From positions 1 through 64,000 of the forward strand of contig NZ_DASQNA010000033.1 in NCBI RefSeq assembly GCF_035645195.1: 64,000 nt of DNA, read 5' to 3'. Under the pieces are notes generated by a model, which saw nothing but the letters and a program-made list of their open reading frames with translations, was not told the origin of the DNA and did no database searches. Both the position numbers and the translations under genes were made by a program. The first letter of the stretch is position 1. Every line of letters starts with the position of its first letter. This DNA is from Paenibacillus sp. Lineage in GTDB: Bacteria; Bacillota; Bacilli; Paenibacillales; YIM-B00363. Below, piece after piece: positions 91 to 51,960 of this stretch.

Positions 91-118
91 TAAGTATTTC
101 GAGGAAGGCACTGGCATC

Positions 119-233
119 ACATAACACCGCATTCACGCATCGGGCTGGCGCCCTCGGTCGCAGACGTGGATTCGAAGTAGTGGATGCTGCGACAACTCCC
201 TACGGGAGTTCGTGAATGCGAGAAACGTTATGT
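119..233 (+). repeat. attC-like site 1
   Basis: The site runs from ACATAAC (119-125) to GTTATGT (227-233). The inner boxes GCATTCACG (129-137) and CGTGAATGC (211-219) are complementary. Three inner arms are predicted: GGGC/GCCC, GTCGCAG (157-163) with CTGCGAC (187-193), and ACTCCC (195-200) with GGGAGT (204-209). Here both core boxes match because the flanking cassettes happen to start alike. Confidence 0.75.
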
Positions 234-273
234 GAAATGCGAAGTTAAAATAATAGATGGGAGATGTGTTCAA

Positions 274-792
274 ATGAAGTTTCTAAAAACCGATAGACCA
301 AATAATATTTTTTATGGAGATTTATTTGACATCAACGGGAAGGGATGTTTAATATTCGGATCCGGCAAAACAAAAGCATGTCGAGTGGCAGGAGAGGATA
401 TTGCACTAGATTTTGTTTGTTTAACGAGAGAAGGGGATGAGGTTTTTGGTCATTTTGAAATGTTCATGAAGCTTGATGGCTCTCCTGATCCAATTAATCA
501 AAGAAAGAGAATAGATTATTTTGTTAGAATGCTAGATCAAATTGAAACTTCTCAATCAAATAACGTCCATCATGGAAATATAATTTCAGTAAGCTATGAT
601 GAATTTGTAAAGCTTTCTAGGTTTAACATATGTTTTACTATAGGATTCGAAACCCTTGAAACGTCTCCTGAAAAACGTATTACTAATTTTCTTAATTTGA
701 CTAAAAATGCTGATATTAAAGAATTCATAGTTGTTCCTTGGAAATCATCCCATGAAGAAAAAGGGACGATCATTAAAAAACATATAAATTAA
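274..792 (+). CDS. Hypothetical cassette protein (172 aa)
   Basis: No family is recognised. The start is placed at ATG 274, behind a GGGAGATG ribosome binding site; a longer frame from 184 would read through attC sequence and is not credible as protein. The protein is soluble, with no signal peptide or membrane segment, and is rich in Lys, Asn and Ile like its neighbours. It is the only gene of the cassette that starts TTATGTGAA at 228 and ends TTCACATAA at 820-828. The codon use is AT-rich, unlike the GC-rich genes beyond 15 kb. Confidence 0.7.
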   Translation: MKFLKTDRPNNIFYGDLFDINGKGCLIFGSGKTKACRVAGEDIALDFVCLTREGDEVFGHFEMFMKLDGSPDPINQRKRIDYFVRMLDQIETSQSNNVHHGNIISVSYDEFVKLSRFNICFTIGFETLETSPEKRITNFLNLTKNADIKEFIVVPWKSSHEEKGTIIKKHIN

Positions 793-822
793 GACCATTT
801 GAGGGTAACTCTAAAGCACTTC

Positions 823-942
823 ACATAACAATGCATTAAACGCATCGGGCCTGATGGCCCTCGGTCCGCAGACATGATCTCGATGAAGCTAGAGCTGCGG
901 ACAACCTCCTACAGAGGTTCGTGAATGCAGGAGACGTTAGGC
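823..942 (+). repeat. attC-like site 2
   Basis: The site runs from ACATAAC (823-829) to GTTAGGC (936-942). The cores do not match each other, because the left one belongs to the preceding cassette and the right one includes the first bases of the next, as expected for G^TT crossover. The first arm reads GGGCC/GGCCC, and the third arm ACCTCC/AGAGGT differs from site 1 with mostly compensating changes. Confidence 0.75.
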
Positions 943-978
943 GAAAGATCGAAGATAAATTTAGTCAGGGCGGGTTCA

Positions 979-1530
979 ATGATGCTCGAAGGAAAACTAA
1001 TTGAAATTATGCTCATAAATCCCAGAACAGTCATAGATTTAGAAACGGTAAAGTCATTAGAGTTAAAGAACTGGTTCATTGCGGCCGGGTATGTCCGCAA
1101 TCAAGTTTGGGATCATTTGCACAACAATAAAAAGCCTTTAATCTTTGAGGATGTAGATATCATTTATTATGATTCAAGTGATATTACAGAGGAAACAGAC
1201 AAGAAATACGAGGAGCAGCTTAGAGCGAAAAATTCTAATTTAAACTGGTCAGTTAAGAATCAAGCAAGGATGCACTTAAGGAATAACCATGAACAATATT
1301 TAAGTATAGACGACGCAATGAGGCGATGGCCTGAAGCAGCAACAGCGGTAGGAATCAAGTTAACGGATCAGGATCGAATTGATGTAATCGCTCCACATGG
1401 ATTAGAGGATTTGTTTGAATTAAAGTTAAGGCAAAGTAGATATTGTAAGGATCGGGCTATTTTTATGAAGAGGATTTATGATAAGAAATGGTTAGATAGA
1501 TGGAACCAGTTAAAGATAGTGTTAGGGTAA
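979..1530 (+). CDS. Nucleotidyltransferase family protein (NTP_transf_6 / DUF925)
   Basis: The 183-residue protein matches the DUF925/NTP_transf_6 pattern closely: NWFIAAGYVRN then VWD near residues 33-46, an acidic D-x-D metal-binding pair in EDVDIIYYD, then WSVKNQARMH, a 'RRWPEAATAVGIKL' stretch, APHGLEDLF and a C-terminal KKWLDRWNQL. Members are predicted nucleotidyltransferases whose substrate is unknown. Start is at ATG 979 (an ATG at 982 is equally possible). It is the sole gene in a cassette whose ends TTAGGCGA (937) and TCGCCTAA (1543-1550) are complementary. A truncated near-copy of this cassette lies at 6590-6696. Confidence 0.85.
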   Translation: MMLEGKLIEIMLINPRTVIDLETVKSLELKNWFIAAGYVRNQVWDHLHNNKKPLIFEDVDIIYYDSSDITEETDKKYEEQLRAKNSNLNWSVKNQARMHLRNNHEQYLSIDDAMRRWPEAATAVGIKLTDQDRIDVIAPHGLEDLFELKLRQSRYCKDRAIFMKRIYDKKWLDRWNQLKIVLG

Positions 1531-1544
1531 CTCAGAGATCCTTC

Positions 1545-1660
1545 GCCTAACACCGCATTCACGCATCGGGCTAACGCCCTCGGTCCGCAGAAGAGATTCA
1601 GTGAAGCTAGTGCTGCGGACAACTCCCTACGGGAGTTCGTGAATGCAGGAGCCGTTATAT
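1545..1660 (+). repeat. attC-like site 3
   Basis: The site runs from GCCTAAC (1545-1551) to GTTATAT (1654-1660). The inner boxes CCGCATTCACG and CGTGAATGC pair; the middle arm is GTCCGCAG with CTGCGGAC and the last arm ACTCCC with GGGAGT. Confidence 0.75.
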
Positions 1661-1694
1661 GAAAGATATGCAAAGTCAAAAGGGGCGAAATAAT

Positions 1695-2297
1695 GTGATA
1701 TTTAATTTATTTCGTAAGGGTAAAACAGAATCGGTATCTTTAGAAATGCAAATTCAAACATTAATTGACCTAGGTGTAACTTTTAACTTGTCGGATGCAG
1801 AATTAATTAAGGGATTGACGGATCAATTTGATAGGCAAGTTTACGAAGAAGATCCGTACAGACTACTCATTTCCGTTGCTGGTACTGATTTGCTCGATAA
1901 TAACGGGAATGAATTACGGCTGTCATATGACATTTTAAGTTTTGATACTGAGTGCGTTGAGGATGAGTATATATACACAGATGTTATAACTCAGTTTTTG
2001 CGCCTTGCAAAATTGGAAAATTACATAAGTGAGTTAGACAGCAAAGTTAATTTTAATGAAGAAACTGCCTATATAACTTTCTTATTTGAGCAAAAAAGAT
2101 ATAAGTGGAATATAAGCTTTGACAGCGATTGGTTTGATGTTAGCGTCTTAGAGAGAATGGCGAGTGTGATTGAAAGGCCAAATATGAAGTTCATTTATTT
2201 TAATGATGGGCAGCATCTTACATTAATGTACTGTTCCAAAGCGGTATTTAAACAAATAAATAATCTAACAAAGAACAAATTCAGAATGTTAGCATAA
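1695..2297 (+). CDS. Hypothetical cassette protein (200 aa)
   Basis: No family is recognised. The chosen start is GTG 1695 after AAAGGGGCG; an ATG at 1659 lies within the attC core and would add 12 residues. The sequence is acidic and soluble (for example ECVEDEYIYTD) without signal peptide or membrane helix. Its cassette begins TTATATGA and ends TCATATAA (2316-2323). Confidence 0.65.
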   Translation: MIFNLFRKGKTESVSLEMQIQTLIDLGVTFNLSDAELIKGLTDQFDRQVYEEDPYRLLISVAGTDLLDNNGNELRLSYDILSFDTECVEDEYIYTDVITQFLRLAKLENYISELDSKVNFNEETAYITFLFEQKRYKWNISFDSDWFDVSVLERMASVIERPNMKFIYFNDGQHLTLMYCSKAVFKQINNLTKNKFRMLA

Positions 2298-2317
2298 TCG
2301 AAGAAGGCGTATCCTTC

Positions 2318-2436
2318 ATATAACACCGCATTCACGCATCGGGCCGAACGGCCCTCGGTCCGCAGAAGATCATTCGAGGAAGCGGGAGCTGCGGACAACT
2401 CCCTACGGGAGTTCGTGAATGCAGGGGACGTTATGT
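2318..2436 (+). repeat. attC-like site 4
   Basis: The site runs from ATATAAC (2318-2324) to GTTATGT (2430-2436). The first arm is GGGCC GAAC GGCCC, the middle arm GTCCGCAG/CTGCGGAC, and the last arm ACTCCC/GGGAGT. The inner boxes are intact. Confidence 0.75.
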
Positions 2437-2478
2437 GAAATCGGGCTAAGAACATTAAAAACAAAGGAGCTCATTAGA

Positions 2479-3108
2479 ATGGCTAGTAGGTTTGGTATCT
2501 TCAGGGAAGATGTAAGAAAAACAAATAAGGAATATTACTCATTAAGAGACAACAAAGTGAATTTTTATTTGATACCAGGAATGAATTTTATAGAATCTAT
2601 TGGGTCTGGAAAACGAGATATTTATAAAATGCATGATTATAAAGAGGTTTGGACAATCGGGCGATTTATTAACCGCGTAAAATACTATACGGTAAGAGAA
2701 TTAGGTAAAAACTTCAGTAGAATGCCATTAGAATTAGCTTGGGGAGATTCGGATAATGAATATAAAGCATCAATGTGGGTGCCTGAATATATATCTGATG
2801 ATTTATTTGAAGTGACAATGAGTGATCTCGGAAGAAAATATGATTTTGTAAAAGATCTGTCTATATCTCTAATCTTCAGGAAAGAAAGGAATTGTGCACA
2901 GCTACTTCACTTCGGAGAATATAACCAAATAGAATCGTCAAAACAATACCTCCTTGAAGGAATATATGCAGAAGGATTTACCCCGACGGGCAAACTTGGA
3001 GAAATATTTTTGAACCATCCGCACTGTAACCCACCGGATAAACTCCAGATACTCCTAAGACAAGAAATCGCTGATAGCAAACTCAAAAAAGCGCCCGACA
3101 TCACATAA
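2479..3108 (+). CDS. Hypothetical cassette protein (209 aa)
   Basis: No family is recognised. The start is ATG 2479 behind AAAGGAGC. The stop codon TAA lies inside the R''-like core ACATAAC of the following site, so the last residues (APDIT) are encoded by the cassette's terminal inverted repeat. The protein is mixed alpha/beta and soluble. Its cassette begins TTATGTGA-AA-TCGGGC and ends GCCCGA-CA-TCACATAA, a clear example of the extended end complementarity with a central 2x2 mismatch. Confidence 0.7.
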   Translation: MASRFGIFREDVRKTNKEYYSLRDNKVNFYLIPGMNFIESIGSGKRDIYKMHDYKEVWTIGRFINRVKYYTVRELGKNFSRMPLELAWGDSDNEYKASMWVPEYISDDLFEVTMSDLGRKYDFVKDLSISLIFRKERNCAQLLHFGEYNQIESSKQYLLEGIYAEGFTPTGKLGEIFLNHPHCNPPDKLQILLRQEIADSKLKKAPDIT

Positions 3109-3217
3109 CACCGCATTCACTCATCGGACTGACGCCCTTGGTCGCAGATGAGAATTCGAAGAAGTGATTGCTGCGACAACTCCCTGCGGGAGTTCGTGAA
3201 TGCAAGGAACGTTATGT
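3103..3217 (+). repeat. attC-like site 5
   Basis: The site runs from ACATAAC (3103-3109) to GTTATGT (3211-3217). The middle arm is the seven-base form GTCGCAG/CTGCGAC, as in site 1. The third arm is ACTCCC TGC GGGAGT. Confidence 0.75.
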
Positions 3218-3246
3218 GAAATTGCACGTTATTTAAGTGAAAGTCG

Positions 3247-3630
3247 GTGAAGTATATATTTAAAGATCATTGGAACCCAACTAAAGAAGAAATATACAAC
3301 TGGGCACTTGACGAAGATGCATTGTGTGACCAGGATTGGGAACTCGCAGTTGCCCAGTTTGAACATTTTGAGCTTATGGTTCAGTTGGCAAATGATAATT
3401 CATTGGCTAAGAGATATTTTTTTCTAGGTTGTTTATATGTATTTACGGGGGATATTGTTCGAAGTGAAAATCAAAGCGAAATCGAAAGACTCAAATCTTT
3501 AATTAATCAACTGAATTTAAAGAATGAGAGCAATGAAATAAAGGACTGGAGACTTCGTTCTTTGTATCTAATCCAAAACCCTAGTCAATATGATTATACA
3601 TATTGGGGGTTAAATTCAAAGTACATTTAA
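3247..3630 (+). CDS. Hypothetical cassette protein (127 aa)
   Basis: No family is recognised. The GTG start at 3247 gives MKYIFKDHWNPTKEEIYNWA. The ribosome binding site is weak (AAGTGAAAG). The protein is acidic and helical, without membrane segments. Its N-terminal pattern (W-N-P-T-x-E-E-I-x-x-W) is reminiscent of small antitoxin or immunity-like proteins, but that is only an impression. The cassette ends TTATGTGA-AA-TTGCAC (3212-3227) and GTGCAA-CA-TCACATAA (3657-3672) pair over 14 of 16 positions. Confidence 0.6.
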   Translation: MKYIFKDHWNPTKEEIYNWALDEDALCDQDWELAVAQFEHFELMVQLANDNSLAKRYFFLGCLYVFTGDIVRSENQSEIERLKSLINQLNLKNESNEIKDWRLRSLYLIQNPSQYDYTYWGLNSKYI

Positions 3631-3666
3631 CTTATTCGTAGGTATTTCAAAGAAGTGTGCAACATC

Positions 3667-3782
3667 ACATAACACCGCATTCACGCATCGGGCTGACGAC
3701 CTCGGTCCGCAGAGATCATTCGAAGAAGCTGGTGCTGCGGACAACCTCCTACGGAGGTTCGTGAATGTAGGAGACGTTGCTG
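3667..3782 (+). repeat. attC-like site 6
   Basis: The site runs from ACATAAC (3667-3673) to GTTGCTG (3776-3782). The right core lacks two bases compared with the GTTATCTG expected from the cassette's own 3' end (AGATAAC at 4315). The third arm is ACCTCC/GGAGGT, a compensatory change from ACTCCC/GGGAGT. Confidence 0.7.
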
Positions 3783-3816
3783 AAATCCTCGAAAATCAAA
3801 TAAAGGTGGTCACGCC

Positions 3817-4320
3817 GTGGGTCAACTCTCCCAAATAACCAAAGAGTTGTATTACAAAATATATAAAAACATTGATAACGGGCAAGATTACTTAAATTGG
3901 TCTTTTGCCTGTATAGATTATGGACTTGAAGGAAAATTCGTTTTGCAACTAGCTTCATTAAAAAGTACTGAGAGTTTGTTTATTTTTAAGGAGTATTTTG
4001 ATAGGGCAATGAGAGAGATGGACTTTGAAATCCCTACTTTCGAAGAATGTTCATTAGCCTATATGGTCAAATATTGTAATGAGATTCTAAGTAATACATC
4101 TAGAGATATTTTCGATATCGTAAAGGATATTTTTAATGTAGTTGTTCTGGATCTTGACCGGGCAGCGGAGTATTCGGTTTGGCTGGAATTAGATGATGGA
4201 ATAGATAGAATTAGGTACGATGATGAGTATTTCAAACCAGATGAAGAAGAACTTAAAAACCGAATAATAGAAGAGGCAAGAATTTTGTTAGCAACTCAAA
4301 ACGTCGAGGACTTCAGATAA
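3817..4320 (+). CDS. Hypothetical cassette protein (167 aa)
   Basis: No family is recognised. The start is GTG 3817 with AAAGGTGG upstream. It is an acidic, mainly helical soluble protein. The TAA stop lies within the core of the next attC-like site, so the C terminus (VEDFR) is encoded by the cassette's terminal repeat, as in the gene ending at 3108. The cassette ends CTGA-AA-TCCTCG (3780-3791) and CGAGGA-CT-TCAG (4305-4316) pair. Confidence 0.65.
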   Translation: MGQLSQITKELYYKIYKNIDNGQDYLNWSFACIDYGLEGKFVLQLASLKSTESLFIFKEYFDRAMREMDFEIPTFEECSLAYMVKYCNEILSNTSRDIFDIVKDIFNVVVLDLDRAAEYSVWLELDDGIDRIRYDDEYFKPDEEELKNRIIEEARILLATQNVEDFR

Positions 4321-4439
4321 CACCGCATTCACGCATCGGGCCAGCTACCGCCGTCCCTCGGTCCGCAGAAGATCATTCGGGAAAGCCGGAGCTGCGGACA
4401 ACCTCCCACGGAGGTTCATGAATGCGGAAGCCGTTATCT
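4315..4439 (+). repeat. attC-like site 7
   Basis: The site runs from AGATAAC (4315-4321) to GTTATCT (4433-4439). It is longer than the others (125 bp) because the first arm has gained bases (GGGCC AGCTACCGCCGTCCC). The last arm is ACCTCC/GGAGGT. Confidence 0.7.
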
Positions 4440-4485
4440 GAAATGACCGTATAAAAAACAATAAAGGCAGGCTTCGATAAATTTC

Positions 4486-4971
4486 ATGTTACCCTTACCT
4501 AAAGGAATTAGTGGATTCGGAGAAGTTGAAGGAAACAGAATAGAGCTAGATGAATTTAAACGAATATGTTATCACTTAATGATTGTGTTTCAATTTCAAG
4601 GTTTTGAATTGATAGATACTTATAGTGGTAATTATTATATTGGAAAGTTGATGAGAGCGGGCAATAACCGGGACATATTTATTCTAATGAATCAATGTTA
4701 TCCAATTCTTTCCTTTGCCGATGAGTATGAATACGGGAATATAAATTTTGTAGAAGAGAGCACAATTGCTGAATATCTTAGTAATTTAGAGTATCGGTTA
4801 ACTTCGATTGAAGGAGATCAAATAACTAATTACAAAGTAATAACTTTAGAAAAATTGAATGTAAGTTTAAGTGACTCGTTAATAGAAGGTTTACATAAAG
4901 AAGAGAAGAAACAAATTGATTATTGGAGACCCAGTAAAGTTAAAGATATTATCTTTAACAATTGGGATTGA
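4486..4971 (+). CDS. Hypothetical cassette protein (161 aa)
   Basis: No family is recognised. ATG 4486 starts MLPLPKGISGFGE; the region upstream has only a loose purine run (AAAGGCAGG), so the start is tentative. The protein is acidic and soluble. The cassette start carries TGACCGT (4444-4450) and its end ACGGTCA (4988-4994), but the end then reads CTAAC directly, so six bases of the expected TTCAGATAAC are missing. Confidence 0.6.
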   Translation: MLPLPKGISGFGEVEGNRIELDEFKRICYHLMIVFQFQGFELIDTYSGNYYIGKLMRAGNNRDIFILMNQCYPILSFADEYEYGNINFVEESTIAEYLSNLEYRLTSIEGDQITNYKVITLEKLNVSLSDSLIEGLHKEEKKQIDYWRPSKVKDIIFNNWD

Positions 4972-4992
4972 AAGTATATCGAAGAAGACGGT

Positions 4993-5101
4993 CACTAACA
5001 CCGCATTCACGCATGATGCCCTCGGTCGCAGACGTGGGTTCGGGGAAGCTGATGCTGCGACAATCTCCTACGGAGGTTCGTGAATGCGAGGAACGTTATG
5101 C
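4993..5101 (+). repeat. attC-like site 8
   Basis: The site runs from CACTAAC (4993-4999) to GTTATGC (5095-5101) and is the shortest clear copy. The first arm is shortened (GCATGATGCCC) while the middle arm GTCGCAG/CTGCGAC and the third arm CTCC/GGAG are kept. Confidence 0.7.
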
Positions 5102-5140
5102 GAAAACCTCGGAAAACAAATTATGTGGGTGATCACAAAG

Positions 5141-5569
5141 ATGAATAGAGAAAGAGCATGTTCTGCTATATTATTTAATGGAAAAATTATAATGGTAAAA
5201 GTAGTCGAGAAAGATCACAGTTTTTGGACTCTTCCAGGGGGTGGAGTAGAAGCAGGTGAGAGTCGAGAACAAGCAGCAATTCGTGAGGTAATGGAGGAAG
5301 TTAACTTAGAAATTAATATCGTAAGATATTTGTTTGAACGTAAGTATGCTGCAGGTATTGAATATTGTTACCTGGCTGAACCCAAAGATATTAAAAAATT
5401 AAATATTGAACTTGGGTATGACCCGGAGCTGGAGGATTATGAGCAGGTTTTAAAGCAGGTAGAATGGTTTGAAATCGATAAAGTTAGGGAAGATCTACAT
5501 GTTTCAAGAGTAATTGAATCATTAAGTCAAGAAGAGATAAATAAATACAATGTTAATGTGGTGAGATAA
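5141..5569 (+). CDS. NUDIX hydrolase
   Basis: The 142-residue protein carries a Nudix box near residues 34-56: PGGGVEAGE, then REVMEEVNLEI. The usual glycine of EExG is replaced by Asn (EEVN), while the metal-binding REVMEE core is intact. NUDIX enzymes hydrolyse nucleoside diphosphates linked to another group; the substrate cannot be predicted. Start ATG 5141 was chosen because upstream codons lie in attC sequence. It is a single-gene cassette with ends TTATGCGA-AA-ACCTCG and CGAGGT-CA-TCGCATAA. This is one of four NUDIX genes in the array. Confidence 0.85.
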   Translation: MNRERACSAILFNGKIIMVKVVEKDHSFWTLPGGGVEAGESREQAAIREVMEEVNLEINIVRYLFERKYAAGIEYCYLAEPKDIKKLNIELGYDPELEDYEQVLKQVEWFEIDKVREDLHVSRVIESLSQEEINKYNVNVVR

Positions 5570-5613
5570 ATAAAGAGATATTTTGTAAGTATATCAAAGA
5601 TGTCGAGGTCATC

Positions 5614-5730
5614 GCATAACACCGCATTCACGCATTGGGCCTAACGGCCCTCGGTCGCAGGCGTGAGTTCGAGGAAGCGGTTGCTGCGACAACTCCCTAC
5701 GGGAGTTTGTGAATGCAGGAGGCGTTATAG
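5614..5730 (+). repeat. attC-like site 9
   Basis: The site runs from GCATAAC (5614-5620) to GTTATAG (5724-5730). The arms are GGGCC TAAC GGCCC, GTCGCAG/CTGCGAC and ACTCCC/GGGAGT, and the inner box is GCATTCACGC with GTGAATGC. Confidence 0.75.
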
Positions 5731-5769
5731 GAGATGGCTGCAAATCGGATAAAACATTGGAGGTTATTC

Positions 5770-6447
5770 ATGGGCGTAGAGTGGTATGACATGATCGCTA
5801 GAAGAAATGGCGGATACCAGGGAAGATCTATATATACAATTGAAGGGAGATCAGCAGAGGATCTCTTTGAAGAACGGTTAATGAAAATGTTACCAAATTT
5901 TCGGACTGTACTGGATGCTGGGTGTGGCCATGGTGATTTTTCAATACGAATGTCCAAATACGCTAAGAAGATCATTGGTTTTGATAATTCAATTGAAATG
6001 ATCAAAATTGCTCAAGGATTATTAGATTCAAGTCAAGCGGATAACGTGGAATTTGTTTACGCCACGACAAAGTCAGAGCTTCCATTTACTGATGGACAAT
6101 TTGATCTAATTTACGATCGGAGGGGGCCAACTACAATCATAAATCACGGTAGGATATTAGCATCGGATGGGATCATATTTGGAATTCATAATAACGTAGA
6201 TAAAGTAAGAGAACGATTAGTTATGAATGGTTATAAGAACATTGAGATTGAAGAGTACAAAGAGGCTATATTTTATTTTCCTAATGATTTGGAGTTTGCG
6301 AGATTTCTATCTGACATTCCAGGAAACCCGGACTATACGTTGCCGGAATATAGGGAAAAACTTCAAGAAAAGTTGAATGAAAATATGATAAATGGAAGAA
6401 TCGGTTTTAGAGAACTGAAGTACATATGGAAAGCGGTAAAACCTTAA
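5770..6447 (+). CDS. Class I SAM-dependent methyltransferase
   Basis: The 225-residue protein has motif I VLDAGCGHGDFS near residues 45-56, followed by an acidic residue after beta2 (IIGFDNS) and a DLIYDRRGP stretch at motif IV. This marks a Rossmann-fold methyltransferase using S-adenosylmethionine; the methyl acceptor is unknown. Start ATG 5770 follows GGAGG; an upstream ATG at 5734 would add 12 residues from the cassette end. The cassette ends TATAGGA-GA-TGGCTGC and GCAGCCA-CA-TCCTATA match. Confidence 0.85.
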   Translation: MGVEWYDMIARRNGGYQGRSIYTIEGRSAEDLFEERLMKMLPNFRTVLDAGCGHGDFSIRMSKYAKKIIGFDNSIEMIKIAQGLLDSSQADNVEFVYATTKSELPFTDGQFDLIYDRRGPTTIINHGRILASDGIIFGIHNNVDKVRERLVMNGYKNIEIEEYKEAIFYFPNDLEFARFLSDIPGNPDYTLPEYREKLQEKLNENMINGRIGFRELKYIWKAVKP

Positions 6448-6478
6448 GTGTAAGAAACTCGAAGAAGGCAGCCACATC

Positions 6479-6595
6479 CTATAGCACCGTTTTCACGCAT
6501 CGGGCCTAACGACCCTCGGTCGCAGACGTGAGTTCGAGGAAGCGGTTGCTGCGACAACTCCCTACGTGAGTTTGAGAATGCAGGAGGTGTTAGGC
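6479..6595 (+). repeat. attC-like site 10
   Basis: The site runs from CTATAGC (6479-6485) to GTTAGGC (6589-6595). The left core and inner boxes carry point changes (ATAGCACCGTTTTCACGC; GAGAATGC), the first signs of decay along the array. Confidence 0.65.
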
Positions 6596-6696
6596 GAAAG
6601 ATCGAAGATTAATTTAGTCAGAGCAGTTCAGTGATGCTTGAAGAAAACTTATAGAAATTATGCTCATGAATCCCAGATCAGTCACAGATTTAGAAG
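6590..6696 (+). pseudogene. Truncated copy of the NTP_transf_6 cassette (cassette 2)
   Basis: About 105 bases after site 10 closely match the start of the cassette at 937 onwards, including TTAGGCGAAAGATCGAAGAT and the first codons of the gene (MLEENL against MLEGKL). A frameshift and single-base losses occur. The copy stops at the codons for TDLE, where a piece of attC-like sequence (CTCGGTCCGCA) begins. It indicates a second insertion of the same cassette followed by deletion. Confidence 0.8.
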
Positions 6697-7402: not shown

Positions 7403-7409
7403 TAAAATT

Positions 7410-7617
7410 ATAGGGTATCTCAACCACGCATCGGGCTTACGCCCTCGGTCAGCCGAGGCATTTCAGTGAAGTTGATTCAGCGGAGAACCCCTCCACCACC
7501 TAGCCACATCGCGGCCGAAAATCCTGGGAGACTAAGATAAGAGCTATTCAAGTCTCCCAGGATTCCTTAAGGTGGTGGGGTTCGTGAATGCTGGCGCCGT
7601 TAAATGAAAGCTCAGAA
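7410..7617 (+). repeat. Enlarged attC-like site 11 with a long inserted hairpin
   Basis: The site retains ACGCATCGGGC TTAC GCCC on the left and GTTCGTGAATGC then GTTAAAT on the right. Its third arm is replaced by a nested inverted repeat: AACCCC (7486-7491) plus CCACCACCT (7493-7501) pairs with AGGTGGTGGGGTT (7570-7582), and inside it AATCCTGGGAGACT (7520-7533) pairs perfectly with AGTCTCCCAGGATT (7551-7564). The left core is lost. This could be a hairpin element inserted into the variable arm. Confidence 0.6.
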
Positions 7618-7668
7618 CTGGAAAATCTGGGGTTGAAATCATTTGATTTTTTCATACCGGAGGTTGTG

Positions 7669-8121
7669 ATGGTGAATAATGTTACGTATAAAAAACTACA
7701 AACCGGAGACGAATTGATATTTTCTGAACTAGTTCTGCTTTTCAATAAGGAGTTTGAATCACCTAATACGGACTACGTAAATAATGATAATATTGCTAGG
7801 CTTTTATCGAGCCCTTTTTTTGTTTGTATCGTTGCAATACAGGGTGACGAGGTTATAGGCGGATTAACAGGATACGAATTGGATATGTATGATCGGAAGG
7901 GATCCACTCTATATTTATACGACATAGCGGTAGGAACGAATTATCAACGTAAGGGAATAGGAAGTAGTCTTATTAGGGAATTAGTAAAATATTGTAAATC
8001 AAATGAAATACGAGATATCTTTGTTCAAGCAGATGCTATTGATCAACACGCGGTTGAGTTTTACAAAAATCTTGGTGGAGAGAAATCTAGTGTCTATCAG
8101 TTTACATTCGCTGTTGTGTGA
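7669..8121 (+). CDS. GNAT acetyltransferase resembling aminoglycoside 3-N-acetyltransferase AAC(3)-I
   Basis: The 150-residue protein has a LFNKEFE stretch near residue 26, a strand LYLYDIAV, the acetyl-CoA loop QRKGIG near residues 103-108, and FVQADAIDQHAVEFYKNLG. The same order (IYIYDLAV, RRQGIA, YVQADYGDDPAVALYTKLG) is found in AAC(3)-I enzymes, as recalled from the family. AAC(3)-I proteins transfer acetyl to the 3-amino group of gentamicin-type aminoglycosides and are classic integron cargo. Resistance activity here is inference. The ATG at 7669 follows GGAGG. Confidence 0.75.
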   Translation: MVNNVTYKKLQTGDELIFSELVLLFNKEFESPNTDYVNNDNIARLLSSPFFVCIVAIQGDEVIGGLTGYELDMYDRKGSTLYLYDIAVGTNYQRKGIGSSLIRELVKYCKSNEIRDIFVQADAIDQHAVEFYKNLGGEKSSVYQFTFAVV

Positions 8122-8176
8122 CACTTAAAAATACCAAAAAAATCTTGGTTCGTATTTCGAAGAAGGCAGTAACATT

Positions 8177-8304
8177 CTTTAACAACGCATTCACGCATCG
8201 GGGACATTCGTCCCCTTAGTCCCGGAAGTGAGGGTTGAGGAGTGGCTCCCGGGACACCTTCGGGCTTAAGGTGGTGGGATGTCGCAAATGCAACAACGTT
8301 ACAC
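8177..8304 (+). repeat. Divergent attC-like site 12 with covarying arms
   Basis: The site runs from CTTTAAC (8177-8183) to GTTACAC (8298-8304). The sequence of the arms differs from all others but the fold is kept: GGGGAC ATTC GTCCCC, then GTCCCGG pairing with CCGGGAC, then CACCTT with AAGGTG. The left box GCATTCACGC is conserved, while the right one has become GCAAATGC. This is the best single piece of covariation evidence for the fold. Confidence 0.7.
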
Positions 8305-8370
8305 ACGATATTCGCGAAAACCCAAAAACCCGAAAACCCGATAAAACTAATTAGAATAGGGGAATGACTC

Positions 8371-51778: not shown

Positions 51779-51820
51779 TCATAACAATACGGGAGTTCGT
51801 GAATGCAGGGGCCGTTATAC
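51779..51820 (+). repeat. Stray, internally deleted attC-like site
   Basis: CATAAC (51780-51785) is followed within six bases by the right part of the array element (GGGAGTTCGTGAATGC, then AGGGGCCGTTATAC). The middle of the element is missing. It is 37 kb from the array and lies just before a gene of a kind found in the array. Confidence 0.65.
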
Positions 51821-51960
51821 AGGGTTAACCAGAACCGTGCTCGAGAAGTGTCCCCCTAATCGTCTAAATATGTTAATATATGGGCATCACCTTGAGTTGC
51901 TCGGAACTTGTTTTGTTTGAGGAGCGAAAGGTGACTTTTTATTTATTGGGAGGTTATTAC

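Follow-up and report, generated by a model that had tools for sequence, protein, structure and literature searches.

Background

Integrons are reported to be extremely rare in Firmicutes, where one complete case is given, and a few clusters of attC sites lacking an integron integrase (CALIN) have been reported in different genera of the phylum (IntegronFinder 2.0, PMC9024848); a further integron screen covered genomes including Bacillales (PMC11089894). The integron integrases, IntI, are characterised by an additional domain (Larouche and Roy 2011, PMC3053210), and an idea discussed in PMC4792948 is that a Xer-like ancestor gained the I2 domain, which permitted recognition of single-stranded substrates. 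All cited papers are drawn on here through extracts of their text. Here we describe a cassette array in a 64,000 nt stretch of Paenibacillus sp. DNA (GCF_035645195.1, contig NZ_DASQNA010000033.1, positions 1 to 64,000, hereafter the window), in which the two ends of a cassette carry complementary sequences, the outer boxes, beyond the R box of the attC-like site. A preliminary description of the window had pointed to such boxes, and the observation is sound and stronger than could be known at that time. As judged from cassettes of many genomes, the outer box is a real, cassette-specific and covarying feature. A search of literature titles and abstract openings, with most subscription papers and bioRxiv outside its range, found no such system in Paenibacillus, Cohnella or Bacillota.

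Outer boxes in the window array

The first 9 kb of the window hold an array of small genes spaced by imperfect palindromes of about 120 nt, with ten clean attC-like sites at 117-6597 and degenerate sites further on. They are laid out like an integron attC: R'' (TCnnnTAAC), a short spacer, L'' (GCATTCACG), a head of three hairpins, L' (CGTGAATGC), a longer spacer and R' (GTTAnnnGA), where the two spacers are asymmetric at 3 and 7 nt. Folded as DNA, four window sites did better than shuffled versions of themselves, with z between -6.4 and -3.2 for both strands, and an Rfam scan of the window gave nothing at gathering thresholds.

To compare the two ends of a cassette, its start, counted from the TT after G, was set against the reverse-complemented sequence of its own end. 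In this numbering TTA occupies positions 1-3 and GA positions 7-8, with three cassette-specific bases between them at 4-6; positions 9-10 make up the bubble of the preliminary description, and positions 11-17 are the outer box. From position 18 the start is A-rich and the end mostly CTTC, and the matching ends sharply at 17/18. We take the cassette starts (TTATGTGAAAT) to resemble the XerD arm of dif.

All five start/end pairs listed in the preliminary description are present in the sequence, with coordinates correct within one base. A clear outer box was seen in 8 of the 10 window cassettes bounded by recognisable sites, and a ninth (c1) is weak with 3/7 matches; the cassette starting at 6590 was left out of this count as its end has no recognisable R'' box. 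In strict register the cassettes c2-c5, c8 and c9 match at 4, 6, 6, 6, 6 and 7 of the 7 positions, and c6 and c7 match through a small register shift. The own-match sum in strict register is 45, a value reached by 8 of 3,628,800 re-pairings of starts with ends.

Outer boxes in related genomes

Among 83 cassettes of five genomes, which carry 74 distinct outer boxes, a start matched its own end at a mean of 5.36 of 7 positions, against 2.34 for other pairs. The own-match sum of 445 was reached by none of 20,000 permutations, the highest of which gave 241. The preliminary description had named chance matching of shuffled ends as a possible objection; these permutations, along with the re-pairings in the window, reject a chance origin of the outer boxes. 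A further 142 cassettes came from 19 genomes chosen through the presence of a recombinase homologue, and here the own match was 77-89% at positions 11-16 compared with 25-42% for others. It should be noted that cassettes with no GTT anchor were dropped (9 of 92 and 7 of 149). In the pooled sets (225 cassettes, 24 genomes), 174 cassettes have at least 5/7 outer-box matches. In a count by locus, 7 of 58 loci held no cassette at this level. An array of identical type was seen on the Cohnella herbarum plasmid NZ_CP051681.1 (Paenibacillaceae); of its 14 pairs of neighbouring sites, an anchor was available for 13. Position 10 is A/G in each of these 13, and 10 of them reach at least 5/7 matches.

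The mismatch at positions 9 and 10

The outer box had been described as separated from the R box by a conserved 2x2 mismatch. Conservation holds for position 10, where 205 of 225 cassettes combine a start-side A with an end-side C and none has the reverse arrangement; in a larger set of 310 cassettes from 63 loci, overlapping in part with the 83- and 142-cassette sets, the counts are 257 and 2. A fixed 2x2 mismatch does not hold, as position 9 is paired in 104 of the 225 and is otherwise mostly T.T on the bottom strand; one of the originally listed pairs (937/1537) has a mismatch of 1x1. Position 10 reads A.C on the top strand and is a T.G wobble on the bottom strand. The 2x2 bubble is thus a top-strand view; the bottom strand, which is the one recombined in integrons, usually has at most one mismatch and a wobble. 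Within the R box (positions 3-8) the wobbles of the first two cassette sets numbered 33 on the bottom and 15 on the top strand (binomial p 0.013), and the larger set gave 45 and 48, hence we claim no strand bias for the R box.

Pairing within the cassette and covariation

In the 310-cassette set the own match at positions 11-16 was 65-79%, against 29-45% to the next cassette, the latter being the level of random pairs. The variable R bases matched those of the next cassette at 38-49%; in known integrons, too, complementarity of these bases is not required within the array (PMC5371416). Because the match lies within the cassette and not with the neighbour, the outer boxes should pair only in a free circle. 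The partners being exactly the two ends of one cassette would also suit another arrangement, in which a single-stranded stretch of the array pairs a cassette start with its own end and the resulting cassette-spanning stem joins the flanking attC cores and promotes excision. Such a stem would require hundreds to more than 1000 bases of single strand and would compete for the R strands with the local attC fold, and we regard it as very improbable.

Covariation of the outer boxes among cassettes of related genomes, which the preliminary description had put forward as a check, was found. The boxes change jointly on both sides among homologous cassettes: three compensatory positions separate two 85-86%-identical families of one genome (e.g. 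L190/L192), one position each separates the loci L034/L184 and L034/L076, and in the protein-level homologues L084/L184 9 of 10 positions are compensatory. For 15 unique homologue pairs at the nucleotide level we counted 6 compensatory and 11 one-sided positions, and for protein-level homologues, which mostly have different boxes, 26 and 2. These pairs share cassettes and are hence not independent, and 10 of 25 unique pairs were excluded for a member with fewer than 4/7 matches. Some changes are one-sided, and there are hybrid cassettes whose boxes do not match (L190, L192). Comparison of copies further revealed several duplicated cassettes in which the start, the end and the cassette's own attC end are kept while the sequence preceding G|TT, or the cassette that follows, is a different one.

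The four loci L189-L192 (genome G032) form a long array in which a few cassettes recur in many near-identical copies, one of them at least 8 times, and which also has hybrids of homologous cassettes.

These comparisons bear on the idea that the boxes are a relic of cassette birth, for instance from a longer perfect hairpin, or are maintained by hairpin-templated copying, with no present function. Near-identical cassettes with identical boxes would fit such an origin, as would the hybrids with unmatched boxes. Copying should, however, erase the mismatch at position 10, which is retained at the frequency given above, and the compensatory changes between homologous cassettes as well as the sharp stop of complementarity at 17/18 also speak against it; we hold this origin to be improbable.

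Further, both boxes would be transcribed along with forward genes, and the ends might pair in the mRNA of the cassette and close the transcript for stability or translation control. Position 10 would then be A.C in the RNA sense, its conserved G.T form existing only on the bottom DNA strand. Boxes with at least 5/7 matches are moreover kept in 27 of 37 unique cassettes with no open reading frame (ORF) of 60 amino acids, and boxes are kept in 11 of 12 cassettes with a reversed ORF, both by a crude ORF rule. Since cassettes without a gene or with a reversed gene retain the boxes, roles at the mRNA level are disfavoured, and with the A.C position added we reject mRNA pairing, to which we give next to no credence.

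Ordinary integron cassettes as control

As control we used 68 cassettes of IntI integrons. A scan of the genome collection gave 80 IntI loci, the array side was searched in the 45 with enough flank, and an R-box filter reduced 131 canonical candidates to the 68, which are weighted towards two cassette-rich loci (L135 and L140). The match in the control was 91% at position 7, fell to 72, 51 and 41% at positions 8, 9 and 10, and stood at 16-29%, that is at chance, at positions 11-17, where the unfiltered 131 were also at chance (19-27%). Because the control falls to chance past position 10, we reject the outer box as a general integron trait for this sample; the preliminary description had supposed it to be a new site feature, and the ordinary IntI integrons sampled lack it. 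The accompanying statement that canonical attC stems end at the R box has to be given up, as self-pairing of cassettes is given as 9-11 consecutive nt in most cassettes in the available part of Bouvier 2009 (PMC2727003), and our control fades over those positions.

In the control, 14 of the 68 cassettes had a position 9 mismatch that is G.T on the bottom strand, against 2 with G.T on the top strand, and a bottom-strand wobble bias at this position is possible in ordinary integron cassettes too.

The attC core differs as well. Of 310 sites of the order, 253 have an L stem free of extra bases, whereas extra bases, one to three of them and in L'', were present in all 61 measurable canonical sites (of 68). 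The custom site finder used here favours unbulged stems; among model-found sites, 185 of the 212 that could be aligned lacked an extra base in the L stem, and 51 of 263 scored too low to align. As the site is palindromic, the finder uses the spacer asymmetry as strand rule, and the asymmetry of its sites is therefore partly by construction. Of 287 sites found by the model it recovered 186; some of its cassettes are therefore fused pairs, and the model-based counts take precedence.

Recombinase and attI-like sequence

The best match to an integron integrase in this genome is a tyrosine recombinase of 384 amino acids on another contig (C13), with an attC downstream on the same strand. We take the gene beside it to be polC, and a homologue in genome G002 presumably lies beside polC-like and proS-like genes, as read from protein sequence. 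The cassette at the C13 end starts TTATGTGAAACCAGTGC and the one at the window start ends, in reverse complement, TTATGTGATGCCAGTGC, with outer boxes identical at 7/7. Because these two halves share the box, the window array can be joined to the C13 recombinase across the assembly gap, and most likely the array continues from that recombinase with the junction inside one cassette. The private end tag is thus of practical use, as it bridged the two contigs.

In a first batch from other genomes, 19 of 20 recombinases had attC matches beside them, and the exception (L070) is a 4 kb contig end; among 20 recombinase neighbourhoods of a second batch, the less sensitive custom finder found no site in L171 and L180. 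The preliminary description had missed that the recombinase, like the attC core, departs from ordinary integrons. The I2 region spans 14-15 residues in 24/24 recombinases of the order and 54-56 in 22/22 IntI, both being chosen subsets of the sequences in hand or of the fetched loci, and an alignment to the solved IntI4 (2a3v) breaks at the I2 point. Scores against the integron-integrase model TIGR02249 were 212.1 for the protein of the window genome and 196.5 for a second one, with a cut-off of 265. In a phylogenetic tree IntI form a clade (100/99), with the recombinases of the order outside and next to it; a 100/100 branch splits both from the Xer-type proteins of the same genomes, and the unity of the order's own group is weak (64/81). 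The tree was midpoint rooted, gave long-branch warnings and included no archaeal XerA; a broken recombinase fragment (L050) was dropped.

About 100 residues before the SAM-like domain are unassigned by Pfam in two scanned recombinases, apart from one sub-threshold HARP match. This N-terminal region (about 95 residues) might bind the outer stem in the manner of an arm site, whatever the sequence of the stem, in which case the boxes would be recombinase contacts and stability would be secondary. The fixed offset and length of the box and its sharp end at 17/18 would suit such a contact. On the other hand the sequence of the box is almost free, so that only its shape could be read, and a homologue on a Chryseobacterium oryzae plasmid (NZ_CP094530.1, 11968-13011; L087), near full length, 36% identical and also without I2, matches from residue 8 and thus includes the N-terminal region, yet no attC-model match was found near it. 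We consider a contact of this kind unlikely as the main explanation.

Directly before the first cassette, 32 loci have the consensus GAAGTTCGTAAATAAGACG|TTA (56-97% per position), and in 18 of them a simple pattern picked up another copy some 36 bp further upstream. The 32 were hand-picked from 50 candidates as lying near the gene with no attC core preceding. By position and sequence we regard this conserved stretch as a putative attI.

On plasmid pPP2 of Persicobacter psychrovividus (NZ_AP025294.1, L088) a recombinase 43% identical to the enzyme of the order over the matched part precedes small genes on the same strand (DUF6678, DUF4272), with highly repeated, imperfectly palindromic units between them. 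The attC model R1 found zero sites there; going by the layout, this is possibly a similar cassette array in Bacteroidota. Within the order, a number of recombinase homologues have stop codons or are partial matches, so the platforms may decay often.

Predicted folding and proposed role

The preliminary description had suggested that in a circular cassette both sides join into one extended hairpin. This agrees with the matching ends meeting only there and with a predicted fold that is about 8 kcal/mol more stable. For 247 sites folded as DNA, the predicted mean for the bottom strand was -42.5 kcal/mol in the circle form and -34.2 in the array form, and the circle form was lower by more than 0.5 kcal/mol in 220 of them. 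Swapping only the outer box for that of another cassette came at a mean cost of 4.5 kcal/mol, with a change above 0.5 in 213 of 247. All these energies are predictions for isolated strands; 62 of the 310 cassettes had been dropped for an unmatched R box, leaving 248, and one more was lost before folding.

We think it reasonably probable that the outer stem, being specific for the circle, helps an enzyme without I2 to insert cassettes, and that the whole is an integron-like platform. Each cassette has, at either end, an outer box and an R-box partner of its own, and upon excision as a circle the two ends would meet around the attC core. A single bottom strand could then form one long hairpin of the L stem, the asymmetric spacer and an R arm of about 8-9 bp, continued by a weak step (T.T or T-A, then the conserved T.G wobble) and an outer stem of 6-7 bp. 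In the array the neighbour supplies the other R strand, which would leave the variable R bases and the outer box mostly unpaired. The free circle would thereby be a much better folded substrate than the array junction, and re-insertion at attI would be favoured over further excision. The longer double-stranded arm may be what is offered to an enzyme that does not recognise extrahelical bases, and the weak step with its conserved bottom-strand G.T may aid strand choice. The sequences themselves show that the boxes exist, covary and match only inside one cassette, that I2 is missing and L-stem bulges are few, and that an attI-like stretch is conserved; we infer bottom-strand recombination, crossover at G|TT, the bias towards insertion and the contact with the enzyme. 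The outer box offers a simple experiment on how a free cassette differs from an array junction.

Some observations weigh against this explanation. Among the 225 model-found cassettes, 51 have fewer than 5/7 matches, and these include mis-joined or shifted cases as well as true exceptions. On a simple version of this role a decay of the outer match with distance from attI was expected, and it was not seen (Spearman 0.07, p 0.34, n 208). The bottom strand is favoured over the top strand by a modest 2.8 kcal/mol when the outer region is included and by 2.1 when it is left out. Wobble mismatches inside the outer box number 72 on the bottom and 70 on the top strand, without strand bias, and therefore the sequences are, outside position 10, silent on which strand pairs. 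Finally, the only NCBIfam model whose cut-off the recombinase of the window genome passes is NF040815 ('site-specific tyrosine recombinase/integron integrase', the XerA type of archaea), with 221.8 against 220; its G002 homologue lies below that cut-off (208.5).

Distribution

A covariance model of the ten window sites gave 17 matches genome-wide (E up to 1), and matches in 5 of 8 genomes of the family. At E 1e-6 the attC model had matches in 228 of the 392 genomes searched from one Bacillota order, a figure for presence and not for copy number because only 9 candidates per genome were scored, and a close relative of the recombinase was found at E 1e-55 in 122 of the 392. Going by the named Cohnella plasmid, the carriers would be Paenibacillaceae and relatives. 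From these sequence matches, the platform of recombinase, G|TT attI and attC array looks widespread in this order, and looks like an overlooked branch of gene capture. Further, we speculate, as a possible but doubtful extension, that this may be a separate and widespread Gram-positive branch of cassette capture working without I2 or extrahelical bases, in which the outer stem and the bottom-strand G.T handle strand choice and mark the free cassette as ready for insertion, and that it may preserve a stage of the integron before I2.

Further features of the window

The features of the array are collected in Table 1. Between 8700 and 15100 the window holds many more small genes with attC-like remnants only, and this part looks like an older, decayed part of the array. 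A lone half-site, GTTCGTGAATGCAGGGGCCGTTATACAGG, lies distant from the array at 51795-51830, perhaps a stray insertion at a secondary site.

Table 1. Sites and cassettes of the window array, with outer boxes given as start-side / end-side positions
Feature	Position	Strand	Evidence and remarks
Outer box beside site 1	108-114		CCAGTGC on bottom strand; with the 5' R box of site 1 closes cassette starting on contig C13
attC-like site 1	117..235	+	Covariance-model match
Cassette c1	228..936	+	Weak outer box 238-244 / 812-818 (3/7)
attC-like site 2	821..944	+	Site alignment, model match
Cassette c2, nucleotidyltransferase PF06042	937..1654	+	Outer box 947-953 / 1534-1540 (GATC, 4/7)
attC-like site 3	1543..1662	+	Site alignment, folding, model match
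Cassette c3	1655..2430	+	Outer box 1665-1671 / 2307-2313 (GATAYGC, 6/7)
attC-like site 4	2316..2438	+	Site alignment, folding, model match
Cassette c4	2431..3211	+	Outer box 2441-2447 / 3092-3098 (TCGGGC, 6/7)
attC-like site 5	3101..3219	+	Site alignment, model match
Cassette c5	3212..3776	+	Outer box 3222-3228 / 3656-3662 (TTGCAC, 6/7)
attC-like site 6	3665..3784	+	Site alignment, model match
Cassette c6	3777..4433	+	Outer box TCCTCGA 3786-3792 / 4304-4310; start R box one base shorter; read from sequence
attC-like site 7	4313..4441	+	Site alignment, model match
Cassette c7	4434..5095	+	Outer box TGACCGT 4444-4450 / 4988-4994; end-side R box shorter; read from sequence
attC-like site 8	4991..5103	+	Site alignment, model match
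Cassette c8, NUDIX	5096..5724	+	Outer box 5106-5112 / 5603-5609 (ACCTCG, 6/7)
attC-like site 9	5612..5732	+	Site alignment, folding, model match
Cassette c9, methyltransferase	5725..6589	+	Outer box 5735-5741 / 6468-6474 (TGGCTGC, 7/7)
attC-like site 10	6477..6597	+	Site alignment, model match
Degenerate attC-like site	7408..7607	+	39.3 bits
Cassette with GNAT gene and weak site 8175-8306	7600..8306	+	Outer box unmatched (2/7); counter-example

Comparison with known systems

CALIN are attC clusters without an integrase (PMC9024848), whereas the arrays described here adjoin a recombinase, albeit one scoring below the NCBIfam integron-integrase cut-off. In the available part of Smyshlyaev 2021 (PMC8138268) an 'integron-like' subgroup is described in which an insertion in the catalytic domain is incompletely conserved; by this description, our recombinases, which lack I2, may resemble its insertion-less members. 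The same extract calls the insertion essential for integron function and ties no cassette array to members lacking it.

The extended pairing of R boxes in Bouvier 2009 is alike in that self-pairing goes beyond the 7-nt R boxes. Unlike the cases given in that extract, the pairing here crosses a conserved G.T step and runs 6-7 bp more, to position 17. Integration of CTXphi by XerCD (Escudero 2016, PMC4792948) shares a single-strand hairpin without extrahelical bases and a recombinase without I2; according to the extract CTXphi has no recombinase of its own, whereas here a recombinase, an attI-like site and cassette arrays go together. A recombinase without I2 beside attC sites that mostly lack extrahelical bases offers a natural test of the I2-gain idea discussed in that paper.

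The closest likeness in anatomy is with the IntI integrons (class 1 and chromosomal ones, in Vibrio, Shewanella and others). Shared with these are the cassette array, the hairpin attC with complementary R and L boxes and AAC/GTT ends, R boxes complementary within the cassette, an attI-like site by the recombinase and varied small genes. Despite this anatomy we do not class the system as an IntI integron, because the recombinase lacks I2 and most L stems lack extrahelical bases; the recombinase also falls outside the IntI clade. Further differences are the spacers of 3 and 7 nt in the window sites versus mostly 3 and 3 in canonical ones, the recombinase gene on the strand of the array, and the presence of the outer box.

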